Below, piece by piece: positions 19,186 to 55,072 of a DNA stretch of 64,000 bases (position 1 is the first letter of the stretch; every line of letters starts with the position of its first letter). A program made the translations under genes and the position numbers. The DNA lies in NCBI RefSeq assembly GCF_900176335.1, contig NZ_FWXW01000002.1:186001-250000 (forward strand), read 5' to 3'. This DNA is from Papillibacter cinnamivorans DSM 12816. GTDB taxonomy: Bacteria; Bacillota; Clostridia; Oscillospirales; Oscillospiraceae. A model generated the notes under the pieces. The model saw nothing but the letters and a program-made list of their open reading frames with translations, was not told where the DNA came from and ran no database searches.

Positions 19186-19333
19186 GCTTCCGCCCCCGTG
19201 CGCTTCCCCGCAGCATCCTTGCCGGGCGCGCGCTGTCTTTATAATTTGTCAAGACATTTTACCATATACCGCCCGGAATGTCCATGGACATTCGCCGAAA
19301 ACAAAACCGGGCAAAAAAACTTCGTCCTGCCTG

Positions 19334-19363
19334 TTGACAAAACGGGCCTCCGTCCTGTATAAT
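19334..19363 (+). promoter_or_regulatory. Promoter of the first Phe T-box unit
   Basis: TTGACA at 19334-19339 and TATAAT at 19358-19363 are both perfect consensus, with an 18-nt spacer. They drive the T-box leader that starts a few nucleotides later. Confidence 0.88.
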
Positions 19364-19380
19364 GCACTTTAACAGCACAA

Positions 19381-19656
19381 AGTGTAAAAGTGATGACCAG
19401 GAAGCAGTAGAAACGAAATCGGCCCACAGAGAGTTCCCGGACGGTGCGAGGGGCGGGCGCGGCGTTTTGAATTCACCCTGCGAGCTGCCCATACGAGGGG
19501 GTCTCCCAAGGATGGTGCCGGAGCTTCGTCCGTTATCGCGAGAGGGTATGCTTTTTGTATACCCGTCAAGGCCGGCGCCGCGAGGCGGCGGCAAACCGAG
19601 GTGGTACCACGGGCATGGATCTCGTCCTCCGATTGTTTCGGAGGGCGTTTTTGTTT
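19381..19656 (+). promoter_or_regulatory. T-box riboswitch, predicted Phe specifier (first copy)
   Basis: This is a full T-box leader. It has the Stem I start AAGTGATGACCAGG, the AGAGAGTT motif, and the specifier loop reading TGAA-TTC-ACC with TTC at 19472-19474 (Phe). The antiterminator is GAGGTGGTACCACGG (19598-19612). The TGGT bulge pairs with an ACCA end, matching the A73 of tRNA-Phe. The terminator (19623-19656) has CCTCCGA/TCGGAGG arms and a T-run. Uncharged tRNA-Phe should allow read-through into the binding-protein gene. The specifier was placed by eye against known leaders. Confidence 0.85.
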
Positions 19657-19775
19657 TGCATGGCAAATCGGTTCATTCCATCTGCCGCTCGGGCAGCTGC
19701 CTGAGAGCATCGCCGCGGTCCTCGGTTCCCTTTTGGTAGTTTGAATTTGGGTAAAGAAATGAAGGAGGAAAAGAA

Positions 19776-20798
19776 ATGAAAAAGACATCCCGGCTCTTAG
19801 CGCTCTCTCTTGCTCTGGCCATGGTGCTGGCCCTGGCGGGCTGCACCTCCGGCGGAAGCACCGCCACGGCCACCCCCACCGCCACCCCCGCGCCCACGGA
19901 ACAGGCAAGCTTCTCCGTTGGCATCATTCAGTACGTGGAGCACGCCGCCCTGGATGCTTCCCGGGAGGGCTTCGTACAGGCTCTGGCGGACAACGGCTAT
20001 GTGGAAGGTCAGAACCTGACCCTGGACCTGCAGAACGCCCAGGCCGACCAGAATAACCTCAAGACCATCAGCCAGCGCTTTGTCAACAACAAGGTGGACC
20101 TGATCCTTGCCATAGCCACCCCCGCGGCCCAGGCCATGGCTTCCGAAACCACCGAGATCCCGATTCTGGGCACCGCTATCACCGACTACGTGGCTGCCAA
20201 GCTCGTCGACTCCAACGAGGCCCCCGGGGGCAACGTCTCCGGCACCACCGATATGAACCCCGTCAAGGAACAGATCGACCTGCTGGTCAAGCTGGTGCCC
20301 GATGTTAAAACCGTTGGAATCCTTTATACCTCCAGCGAAGACAACTCCGTGGTTCAGGCCAACATGGTCAAGGAAGCCTGCGAGGCTCTGAACCTCGCCG
20401 TGGAGGAGGCCACCGTCACCTCCGTCAACGACGTGCAGCAGGCGGCCCAGTCTTTGGTGGGCAAAGTGGACGCTATCTACATCCCCACGGATAACATCCT
20501 GGCCTCCGCCATGCCTGTTGTCTCCACCGTGACCAACGAAGCCAAGATCCCCACCATCTGCGGCGAATCCAACATGGTACTGGCCGGCGGCCTTGCCACC
20601 CTTGGCATCAACTACTATAACCTGGGCTACCAGACCGGCGAGATGGCTGTCCGCCTCTTCAAGGGCGAGGCAAAAATCTCCGAGATGCCCATCGAGTCTC
20701 TCACCAACTATGATTTCACCATCAACGGCGAAGTGGCCAAGACCATCGGCGTCACCATTCCCGAGGATCTGCAGCAGTATGTCGTAAATCCCTCCTGA
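19776..20798 (+). CDS. ABC importer substrate-binding lipoprotein
   Basis: This is a 340-residue binding protein of the ABC_sub_bind (PF04392-like) type. The signal peptide is followed by a lipobox ALAGC (Cys about residue 23) and a low-complexity TATPTATPAPT linker, so it is anchored outside the membrane. The mature part begins FSVGIIQYVEHAALD, typical of the TrpX-like branch of aromatic amino acid importers. A T-box upstream senses tRNA-Phe by my reading. The permease and ATPase follow after a separate promoter and a second T-box. Phenylalanine or a related aromatic compound is the likely ligand. Confidence 0.9.
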   Translation: MKKTSRLLALSLALAMVLALAGCTSGGSTATATPTATPAPTEQASFSVGIIQYVEHAALDASREGFVQALADNGYVEGQNLTLDLQNAQADQNNLKTISQRFVNNKVDLILAIATPAAQAMASETTEIPILGTAITDYVAAKLVDSNEAPGGNVSGTTDMNPVKEQIDLLVKLVPDVKTVGILYTSSEDNSVVQANMVKEACEALNLAVEEATVTSVNDVQQAAQSLVGKVDAIYIPTDNILASAMPVVSTVTNEAKIPTICGESNMVLAGGLATLGINYYNLGYQTGEMAVRLFKGEAKISEMPIESLTNYDFTINGEVAKTIGVTIPEDLQQYVVNPS

Positions 20799-20834
20799 CG
20801 GGGAAACCGGAAATTTCAGCCGGAATATAGACCT

Positions 20835-20867
20835 AAAACGCCCGGGCCGTGAGGTCCGGGCGTTTTT
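20835..20867 (+). terminator. Intrinsic terminator after the binding-protein gene
   Basis: AAAACGCCCGG pairs with CCGGGCGTTTT, ending in a T-run (20863-20867). It closes the first transcription unit of the importer. Confidence 0.88.
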
Positions 20868-20917
20868 CCGGCAGTTCTTTCCGTCTCTTTTACTCTTTGC
20901 ACCGGCAGAGAAAACGG

Positions 20918-20946
20918 TTGACATTCCGCCTGCAAACCGATATAAT
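20918..20946 (+). promoter_or_regulatory. Promoter of the second Phe T-box unit
   Basis: TTGACA (20918-20923) and TATAAT (20941-20946) have a 17-nt spacer: a perfect housekeeping promoter inside the importer locus. Confidence 0.92.
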
Positions 20947-20952
20947 GCTAAG

Positions 20953-21237
20953 CAAATGTAAAAGCGATGATCGGGAGCAAGTAGGTGCGGCGCGCCCCTT
21001 TCAGAGAGTTTCCGGCCGGTGCGAGGAAACGGGGGAACCGCGCGGAATTCGTCCCGTACGCTGCGCGCTGAATGCCTTTGGGCAAGTAGGCTGCCGCCGG
21101 TCTCCGTCCGTTATCGCGGCAGGGCAGTTCTGCCCGCTGAGGTTGCCGCCGCAAGACGGCGACAAACCGAGGTGGTACCACGGGTATCTGGCGCCCGTCC
21201 TCTGATGGATTGTTGGGGGGACGGGTGTTTTCATTTG
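20953..21237 (+). promoter_or_regulatory. T-box riboswitch, predicted Phe specifier (second copy)
   Basis: It has the same layout as the first copy: AAATGTAAAAGCGATGA start, CAGAGAGTTT, then GGAA-TTC-GTCC with TTC at 21048-21050 (Phe). The antiterminator GAGGTGGTACCACGG (21169-21183) is identical to the first copy. The terminator (CCCGTCC/GGACGGG plus GTGTTTT) follows at about 21191-21237. It controls the permease and ATPase genes. The antiterminators match exactly while Stem I sequences have diverged, which suggests an old duplication. Confidence 0.85.
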
Positions 21238-21352
21238 CCCGGGCGCTTCGGTTTCCTCCGGGTTTTTATTTCCGTTATCCACGCGGCGGTGGCGCCGCCA
21301 TGAGGGGCCGGATAGATTCCGGTATGCATTGAAAAGGGTTGGGTGGAGCGAA

Positions 21353-22255
21353 ATGATTCTGATTCTGCAGGGCGCCGTCTCTTTGGGCCTTCTTTGGGCC
21401 GTGATGACCATCGGCGTATTCATTACATACCGCATTCTGGACTATGCCGACCTCACCGTGGAGGGAAGCATAACCACGGGTGCATCTGTGGCTGCGACTC
21501 TCATCTCCGGCGGATGGAATCCCTATGCGGCCACCTTCTTGGCCATGATAAGCGGTATGGTGGCGGGCCTGGCTACGGGGCTCCTGCATACCAAGCTGAA
21601 AATCCCGCCGCTTCTTTCCGGTATCCTCAGTATGATCGCTCTGTACTCCATCAATCTTCGGATCATGGGAAAGGCAAACATCTCCCTTTTGAAAACCGAT
21701 ACGATTTACACTCCCTTCATCAACCTGGGCCTCGGCAGCCGCAATGCGGTGATTTTATTCGGCCTGATCTGCGTTGTTATCCTGATTGCGCTGCTGTATT
21801 GGTTTTTCGGTACGGAAATCGGATGCGCCATCCGGGCCACGGGCAACAACCCCAACATGATCCGGGCTCAGGGAGTCAACACCGACAGCACCAAGATCCT
21901 GGGGCTGGTCATCAGCAACGGCCTGGTGGCTCTGGCCGGCGCCCTCATCGCCCAGTATCAGAGCTTTTCCGACGTGGGCATGGGGATCGGCTCCATCGTC
22001 ATCGGCCTTGCCTCCGTCATCATCGGCGAGGTTCTCTTCGGGACCCGCAACTTCCTGAATACTCTGATTTCTCTTGTCCTGGGCGCCATCACCTACCGGG
22101 TTATCATCGCCCTGGTTCTGGAAATGGGTATGCGGCCCACCGACCTGCGTCTCTTCACAGCCATCACCGTAACCGTCGCCCTTTCTCTCCCCCTGTTCCG
22201 CGGATATCTGAATACCTTTATCCGATCCGCGAAGAATGAGAAAGGAGGTGCTTGA
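21353..22255 (+). CDS. ABC importer permease
   Basis: This is a roughly 300-residue inner-membrane permease of the branched-chain/BPD_transp_2 class, with about eight hydrophobic segments. Examples are ILILQGAVSLGLLWAVMTIG and VIIGEVLFGTRNFLNTLIS. The ATG at 21353 follows GGTGGAG at 5-7 nt; a TTG 24 nt earlier has no ribosome site. It carries the substrate bound by the upstream lipoprotein. The ATPase gene starts 1 nt after its stop. Confidence 0.9.
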   Translation: MILILQGAVSLGLLWAVMTIGVFITYRILDYADLTVEGSITTGASVAATLISGGWNPYAATFLAMISGMVAGLATGLLHTKLKIPPLLSGILSMIALYSINLRIMGKANISLLKTDTIYTPFINLGLGSRNAVILFGLICVVILIALLYWFFGTEIGCAIRATGNNPNMIRAQGVNTDSTKILGLVISNGLVALAGALIAQYQSFSDVGMGIGSIVIGLASVIIGEVLFGTRNFLNTLISLVLGAITYRVIIALVLEMGMRPTDLRLFTAITVTVALSLPLFRGYLNTFIRSAKNEKGGA

Positions 22256-54796: not shown

Positions 54797-55035
54797 GAAA
54801 AAAAGAAATCCGCCTTTTGGACGCTGTAATCCAAGAGGCGGGCTTTCGCTCGCGGTTCCACTCTGATTTATCACTCGCGGCCCCGGGGGCCGTCTTCGGC
54901 GGTAACGCTGCCGGGCGGAGGGCTCCTTCGTCCCCCATGCTCGCGGATGCACTTCATATGAATTTCGCACAAAGCCGTTTTCAGCCGGTGGCGGCTTCTC
55001 TCTGAGGGGAAATCCATGCTACTCTTTCCGTTCAT
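54797..55035 (-). promoter_or_regulatory. T-box riboswitch, Cys specifier
   Basis: Minus-strand leader with GAGTAG start, CAGAGAGAAGCCG, and a specifier region GAAG-TGC-ATCC (TGC at 54951-54949, Cys). The antiterminator AGAGTGGAACCGCG (54864-54851) has a TGGA bulge that pairs with the U73-containing end of tRNA-Cys. A terminator (CCGCCT/AGGCGG, T-run) ends near 54797. Confidence 0.88.
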
Positions 55036-55072
55036 CGCATGATTCAGTTGTATCGCTTAAATGTATTGTAGT

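Follow-up and report, generated by a model that had tools for sequence, protein, structure and literature searches.

We analysed a stretch of 64,000 nucleotides from Papillibacter cinnamivorans DSM 12816 (contig NZ_FWXW01000002.1, positions 186,001 to 250,000 of the forward strand; hereafter the window). It contains an ATP-binding cassette (ABC) importer of the TrpXYZ type that is divided into two units: one with the gene of the substrate-binding protein, the other with the genes of the permease and the ATPase. A separate promoter and a separate T-box leader precede each unit (T1 the first, T2 the second), and the specifier codon of both leaders is best read as UUC (Phe). The anatomy, the codons and the matching tRNA can be read directly in the DNA. 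We consider it highly probable that these are two transcription-attenuation units on an aromatic amino-acid importer, both induced by uncharged tRNA-Phe.

Two T-box units in one importer locus

The importer is encoded by three adjoining genes (PF04392, PF02653 and PF00005), arranged as in its relatives (Table 1). An earlier reading of this DNA, made from the letters alone (the sequence-only reading), had ended the locus at 22255; the ATPase gene extends it to 23051. The same reading had described a consensus promoter and a T-box for each unit, with a terminator between them, and this description stands. Both promoters match the consensus at 12 of 12 positions, both leaders match the Rfam T-box model RF00230, and the stretch with the intervening hairpin (20830-20872) folds at -28.4 kcal/mol (z = -4.71 relative to shuffled sequences). 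A consensus scan of positions 19200-21400 returned five promoter-like sites, compared with a mean of 0.7 after shuffling. The pattern of the locus is far from chance, and the two T-box units are confirmed. The terminator, promoter 2 and T2 all lie in the 554 bases that separate the binding-protein gene from the permease gene.

The covariance-model scan, which had been suggested as a check, retrieved both leaders. T2 scored 99.8 bits over the window (E = 8.7e-21), above the Rfam gathering score of 93, and T1 was matched over its full length with 79.9 bits (E = 4.3e-17 over 2.4 kb). The host genome has 14 matches to RF00230 (E up to 1), with scores from 51.5 to 116.8 bits, and T1 and T2 both fall inside this spread. 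For the comparative work we used a second covariance model, R1, built from transporter T-boxes with T1 among its training leaders.

Specifier codons

Ten further host T-boxes, with first genes named by NCBIfam, served for a calibration of the specifier register by eye. The calibration omitted four of the 14 host T-boxes: T1, T2, the Trp leader of an importer paralogue (L011; L and G numbers are our own labels) and the leader of a His-tRNA-synthetase-like gene (L014, codon unread). In this set, the codon that fits the gene lies one base 5' of the paired 3' strand of Stem I. The codons are GUC for ilvB, CUC for leuA, UGG for trpB, a trpB-like gene and trpE, UUC for pheS, UGC for cysE, ACC for thrS, GCA for an aminotransferase and AUC for a 2-oxoacid oxidoreductase gamma subunit. 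The best model for the aminotransferase is alanine aminotransferase, with a score below the cut-off of that model.

T2 (UUC-G-UCCCG) matches the calibration spacing exactly. T1 (UUC-A-CCCUG) has either a spacer of two nucleotides before the paired CCUG, or one nucleotide and an A.C mismatch; its spacing also occurs in the relatives G319 (UAC-A-C-CCUG) and L087 (UUC-A-C-CCCG). In the alignment of T-box leaders, the specifier column holds UUC or UAC in 21 of 21 sequences and is preceded by GAA, GAG or, in pheS, GGA. UUC matches the anticodon GAA of the tRNA-Phe encoded by the host genome, and no Trp or Tyr codon stands at the specifier position of T1 or T2. From the alignment and the calibrated register, UUC is by far the best reading in both leaders, as the sequence-only reading had it, with a less clean register and a slight ambiguity in T1.

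The antiterminator bulge is less informative. The UGGU of both leaders had been taken to fit A73 of tRNA-Phe, and this fit is real: in the host, tRNA-Phe(GAA) and tRNA-Tyr have A73, while tRNA-Trp and tRNA-Ser(UGA) have G73. It gives no support for Phe specifically. Three of the four Trp T-boxes of the host (L004, L006 and L011) carry UGGU despite the G73 of tRNA-Trp, the fourth (L009) has UGGC, and tRNA-Tyr shares A73 with tRNA-Phe. In TBDB, U is found at this bulge position in 46% of Trp T-boxes (PMC7778990). We therefore rejected UGGU as evidence for Phe.

Attenuators and conserved structure

In each leader a single strand serves both as the 5' side of the terminator and as the 3' side of the antiterminator, so the two folds are mutually exclusive. 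The stretch 19626-19668, at the T1 attenuator, has a z score of -2.72 relative to shuffled sequences. The U tract of the T2 attenuator (TTTTCATTT, 21228-21236) is poorer than that of T1, and the loop of this terminator is longer than our consensus terminator scan permits, which is why the scan omitted it.

The conserved structure was studied with RNAalifold in the alignment of 21 leaders, drawn from 36 T-boxes by excluding 11 host leaders with other specificities or unread codons, and also L026, L027, L087 and L091. In the consensus, 92.0% of the cells are paired and 29 of 38 pairs have changed on both sides, figures that favour the structure since it was derived from the same alignment that scored it. 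The covariation score is 0.521, versus 0.254 in shuffled alignments and at most 0.167 when the partners are slid. The two antiterminator helices are paired in 90.5% and 100% of the cells.

Table 1. Features of the importer locus (positions in the window).
Feature	Positions	Strand	Evidence
Promoter 1, TTGACA-18-TATAAT	19334..19363	+	12/12 consensus
T-box leader T1, Stem I to antiterminator	19384..19632	+	RF00230 79.9 bits, E 4.3e-17; R1 158.5 bits
T1 specifier UUC (Phe), best reading	19472..19474	+	alignment of 21 T-boxes; context GAA-UUC-A-CCCUG
T1 UGGU antiterminator bulge	19602..19605	+	sequence; would pair with tRNA-Phe A73
T1 attenuator terminator, overlapping the antiterminator 3' strand	19623..19647	+	10-bp stem then TTTTTGTTTT
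Substrate-binding protein gene, PF04392, TrpX-like	19776..20798	+	PF04392 E 6.7e-87
Intrinsic terminator 3' of the binding-protein gene	20835..20866	+	14-bp hairpin, then U run
Promoter 2, TTGACA-17-TATAAT	20918..20946	+	12/12 consensus
T-box leader T2	20958..21205	+	RF00230 99.8 bits, E 8.7e-21
T2 specifier UUC (Phe), best reading	21048..21050	+	alignment of 21 T-boxes; context GAA-UUC-G-UCCCG
T2 UGGU antiterminator bulge	21173..21176	+	sequence; would pair with tRNA-Phe A73
T2 attenuator terminator	21191..21228	+	stretch 21190-21236: -25.6 kcal/mol, z -5.31
Permease gene, PF02653	21353..22255	+	PF02653 E 4.1e-28
ATPase gene, PF00005	22257..23051	+	PF00005 E 3.8e-26

Phe, Tyr and Trp leaders across the importer family

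We collected loci of the family from the best 80 of at least 578 matches to an alignment of six binding proteins, added relatives from further searches, and scanned them with R1. This gave 41 pairs of a T-box and a binding protein, including window T1 and the Trp-boxed paralogue of the host. R1 matches that do not adjoin a binding protein, duplicates of loci and the partial matches L148 11-127 and L272 stand outside these pairs. The specifier is Phe in 20 pairs, Tyr in 16 and Trp in five (L153 and L197 were read by eye as UGG). Trp is probably under-counted, because the training leaders of R1 were of the Phe and Tyr types. The sequence-only reading had considered that a Phe-sensing T-box on a TrpXYZ-like importer would be new. 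In nature it is not, since 20 of the 41 pairs read UUC.

The Phe and Tyr labels switch at least eight times on the tree of the 41 proteins, and at least five of these switches are forced by well-supported branches. Labels are more clustered than expected by chance (shuffled means of 14.0 and 13.0 changes), and the Trp-labelled proteins form one group (support 89/78). The sister of the window protein on the tree is the G319 protein (support 99/89), which is 69.6% identical and Tyr-boxed. The codons UUC and UAC are one base apart. In three pairs of sister proteins or of proteins from one locus, the leaders have opposite codons and are otherwise similar (75.9% identity for L085/L086, 84.6% in L106, 76.4% in L109), so these leaders were probably retained and altered at a single base. 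Other switches may have come about by leader replacement.

These patterns suggest that the specifier may report one of two substrates, Phe or Tyr. We propose, with reserve, that the T-box persisted in the importer family while its specifier switched back and forth between UUC and UAC at least five times. The T-box would then name whichever of two paired substrates is limiting, rather than the substrate itself. The importer of the window would be further split into two units, each sensing Phe, which would let the cell set binding protein and pump through different gains on a single tRNA signal. Such exchanges matter in practice. Transporter substrates get assigned from T-box specifiers, and the frequent exchange of Phe and Tyr on close relatives means that this inference needs care. 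The family also offers natural pairs in which to study the change of T-box specificity.

The binding protein and its pocket

The binding protein scores 352.3 bits with the NCBIfam TrpX model NF041285, under the curated cut-off of 390, and is hence not classed as TrpX by this model. A lipoprotein signal was recognized by eye only. In a sequence search of the PDB the best match is 6hni (E = 2.5e-78), followed by 3lft and 3lkv; bound Tyr, Trp and Phe have been reported for these relatives, with selectivity ascribed to two positions (PMC6816091). At these positions the window protein carries Glu264 and Tyr280, the same pair as the tyrosine binder CD0873. We tried this two-residue rule as a test of the substrate and rejected it as non-diagnostic: Glu is found in Trp-, Tyr- and Phe-boxed proteins. 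It occupies the first pocket position in 27 of 30 relatives, Trp-boxed ones included, and among the proteins labelled by specifier it is present in 16 of 20 Phe, 16 of 16 Tyr and three of five Trp. The residues of the window pocket are compatible with Phe import without being diagnostic of it.

Three loci have a Phe-boxed and a Tyr-boxed protein together. In these, Glu is replaced (by A, D and D) in the Phe-boxed protein and present in the Tyr-boxed one. The other Phe-labelled proteins retain Glu in 16 of 17 cases, and no second binding protein was seen around these 17 within the stretches examined, part of which are short. Probably, a protein that works alone takes both Phe and Tyr, and where two proteins divide the work the pocket and the specifier match. 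By homology and leader type, the importer of the window is probably an ABC importer of aromatic amino acids, Phe and probably also Tyr, of the TrpXYZ type.

The host also encodes a paralogue (L197; contig 10, approximately 168271-169594) that is Trp-boxed, has its own permease and ATPase, and is placed apart from the window protein on the tree, in a different group. Judged by their leaders, the host genome has a Trp version and a Phe version of the importer. Phe auxotrophy as a motive for import is unsupported: the prephenate dehydratase and dehydrogenase families (PF00800 and PF02153) are both in the genome, so import probably supplements synthesis.

The doubled arrangement and the origin of T2

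The sequence-only reading had taken a doubled, Phe-sensing arrangement to be new, and the comparison supports the doubling as unusual. At least one interval between a binding-protein gene and a permease gene could be taken from 148 of 177 other loci, and none of the 150 resulting intervals holds an R1 match. These intervals have a median length of 91.5 bases, and three exceed 300.

Elsewhere, paired T-boxes accompany two binding proteins. In L106, L109 and L117 each of the two proteins has its own T-box, one Phe and one Tyr, with a single permease-ATPase pair downstream; in L109 and L117 an additional gene lies between the two T-box/protein units. L148 also has two binding proteins with T-boxes, the first T-box being partial and the second Tyr, and a single permease-ATPase pair downstream.

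T2 may be a duplicate of T1 made in place, or a leader whose own binding-protein gene, the second of the locus, has since been lost. By identity, T1 and T2 are closest to each other (65-67%), with a leader of L109 (L109_4223) tying with T1 for T2 in one comparison. We built a T-box tree after dropping 15 of the 36 T-boxes, for other specificities or long branches, and adding ten. T1 groups there with L096 and L106 (support 91/91) and T2 lies apart; a clade of T1 and T2 is neither recovered nor rejected (p = 0.082 in the approximately unbiased test). A tandem duplication is not proven by this tree, which does not give a sister pair. An origin of T2 as the leader of a second binding-protein gene, since lost, is possible but somewhat doubtful. 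The order T-box/protein 1, T-box/protein 2, permease and ATPase in L106, L109 and L117 speaks for such an origin, while the mutual proximity of T1 and T2 by identity fits a local copy.

Proposed mechanism and alternative explanations

Transcription of each unit would begin at a strong sigma-70-type promoter of that unit and then pass through the transcriptional T-box that follows. The Stem I UUC of each leader would pair with the GAA anticodon of tRNA-Phe. When this tRNA is uncharged, its ACCA end would pair with the UGGU bulge, the antiterminator would hold, and transcription would enter the gene or genes downstream; with charged tRNA-Phe the terminator would form. The strong terminator would end the first unit, so that the permease and the ATPase would depend on promoter 2 and T2 rather than on read-through from the binding-protein gene. 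Given independent promoters and a strong intervening terminator, the two leaders would set how much binding protein is made relative to pump, possibly with the excess of binding protein that the sequence-only reading had suggested. T2, with the weaker of the two U tracts, might raise the basal level of the pump. The binding of tRNA, antitermination, the identity of the substrate and a possible gain difference between the leaders are inferences from sequence. The split locus is a natural construct for asking whether the same tRNA tunes the binding protein and the pump separately. Further support for a Phe-responsive aromatic importer comes from the Phe T-boxes that precede 19 more binding-protein genes of the family and from the kinship to proteins of solved structure that bind Tyr, Trp or Phe.

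Several observations weigh against this proposal. T1 scores below the Rfam gathering score, and between its specifier and the paired strand there is one base more than the calibration leaders have. When we applied the TBDB frame rules (PMC7778990) to T1, they gave UCA (Ser) by default. Folding of the specifier loops, another check that had been suggested, left the triplets only partly open: in single-sequence folds the unpaired probabilities are 0.49, 0.51 and 0.41 in T1 (0.98 for the next two bases) and 0.30, 0.29 and 0.97 in T2. Such folding did not recover the canonical form of Stem I of T1. The antiterminator stretches are hardly, if at all, more stable than shuffled sequences (z = -1.29 and -0.10), and free-energy folding does not return the antiterminator. 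Finally, Glu264 is the counterpart of the CD0873 residue in contact with the hydroxyl group of tyrosine, a position where the Phe binder VC_1101 has Ala (PMC6816091).

The last point bears on the substrate. It is quite possible that the main substrate is tyrosine, or that several aromatics are transported alike, with the Phe T-box reporting one of them and the specifier drifting between Phe and Tyr because either signal serves. The pair Glu264 and Tyr280, the presence of Glu264 in all Tyr-labelled and most Phe-labelled proteins, the repeated label switches and the Tyr-boxed sister protein all fit this explanation. They have to be set against the loss of Glu only in the Phe-boxed member of the three paired loci, which suggests a correspondence of specifier and pocket where the two functions are separated, and against the clustering of labels beyond that of shuffled ones; moreover, Glu264 also occurs in Trp-labelled proteins and is thus non-diagnostic.

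Two further explanations were considered. If T1 read UCA, it would answer to tRNA-Ser(UGA) and T2 alone would be a Phe leader. A stem CAGG/CCUG with one spacer base does give UCA, and this tRNA is encoded in the host genome. Its G73 would meet UGGU by wobble only, the aligned column is filled by UUC or UAC in every leader, the spacing of T1 recurs in G319 and L087, and no link of serine to the importer was seen; we regard this explanation as very improbable. Alternatively, T2 could be an idle remnant, with the permease and the ATPase transcribed from promoter 1 through read-through. The weaker U tract of its attenuator and the usual layout of the family, with the three genes close together, would agree with this. 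The perfect promoter 2, an Rfam score higher than that of T1, the presence of all T-box elements sought and a terminator of -28 kcal/mol ahead of T2 argue the opposite and make a remnant very unlikely.

Other T-boxes in the window and in the collected loci

A third T-box lies on the minus strand of the window (54831-55044). It has a Cys specifier (UGC) and a UGGA bulge, and precedes cysE and a gene of the cysteinyl-tRNA-synthetase family. On contig 5 of the host, an Ile-type T-box (AUC; L007) precedes a 2-oxoacid:acceptor oxidoreductase gene, to our knowledge an unusual T-box target. In another genome, L230 (3-7808) has a Tyr T-box before genes for an AMP-binding enzyme and a sodium:solute symporter, and then a Phe T-box before a POR_N/TPP and POR pair (Pfam assignments), which we take to be indolepyruvate-oxidoreductase-like. 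L229 and L231-L235 have one Tyr and one Phe T-box each. In five Acetobacterium loci (L076, L078, L079, L084 and L126) a further, different T-box is found near 1730-2165, approximately 2.2-2.4 kb upstream of a Tyr-boxed importer.

Comparison with known systems

Our literature search, with two standard surveys (Vitreschak 2008; Gutierrez-Preciado 2009) outside its coverage, found neither a TrpXYZ-type importer described under a Phe T-box nor an importer described as split by two T-boxes. Among the nearest described systems is trpXYZ of Streptococcus suis (PMC9382623), which belongs to the same importer family and is likewise controlled by a T-box with transcription attenuation. Its mRNA has a single T-box with a Trp specifier, whereas the locus of the window has two Phe T-boxes. 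For the protein, the top solved relative is the lipoprotein CD0873 (6hni; PMC6816091). It has Glu and Tyr at both selectivity positions, as the window protein does, and it binds Tyr; the main text of that report makes no reference to T-boxes.

A Phe T-box on a transporter has been described in the Bacillus cereus group, where it is thought to derive from a Tyr T-box (Wels 2008, PMC2494555). That transporter belongs to a different family, NSS, the only one listed in the Phe row of the table in that paper. The same paper mentions loci with several T-boxes, thrZ and trpE, and in this they resemble the locus of the window. In thrZ and trpE, two or three adjoining T-boxes precede one gene, whereas T1 and T2 each have their own promoter and their own gene or genes.

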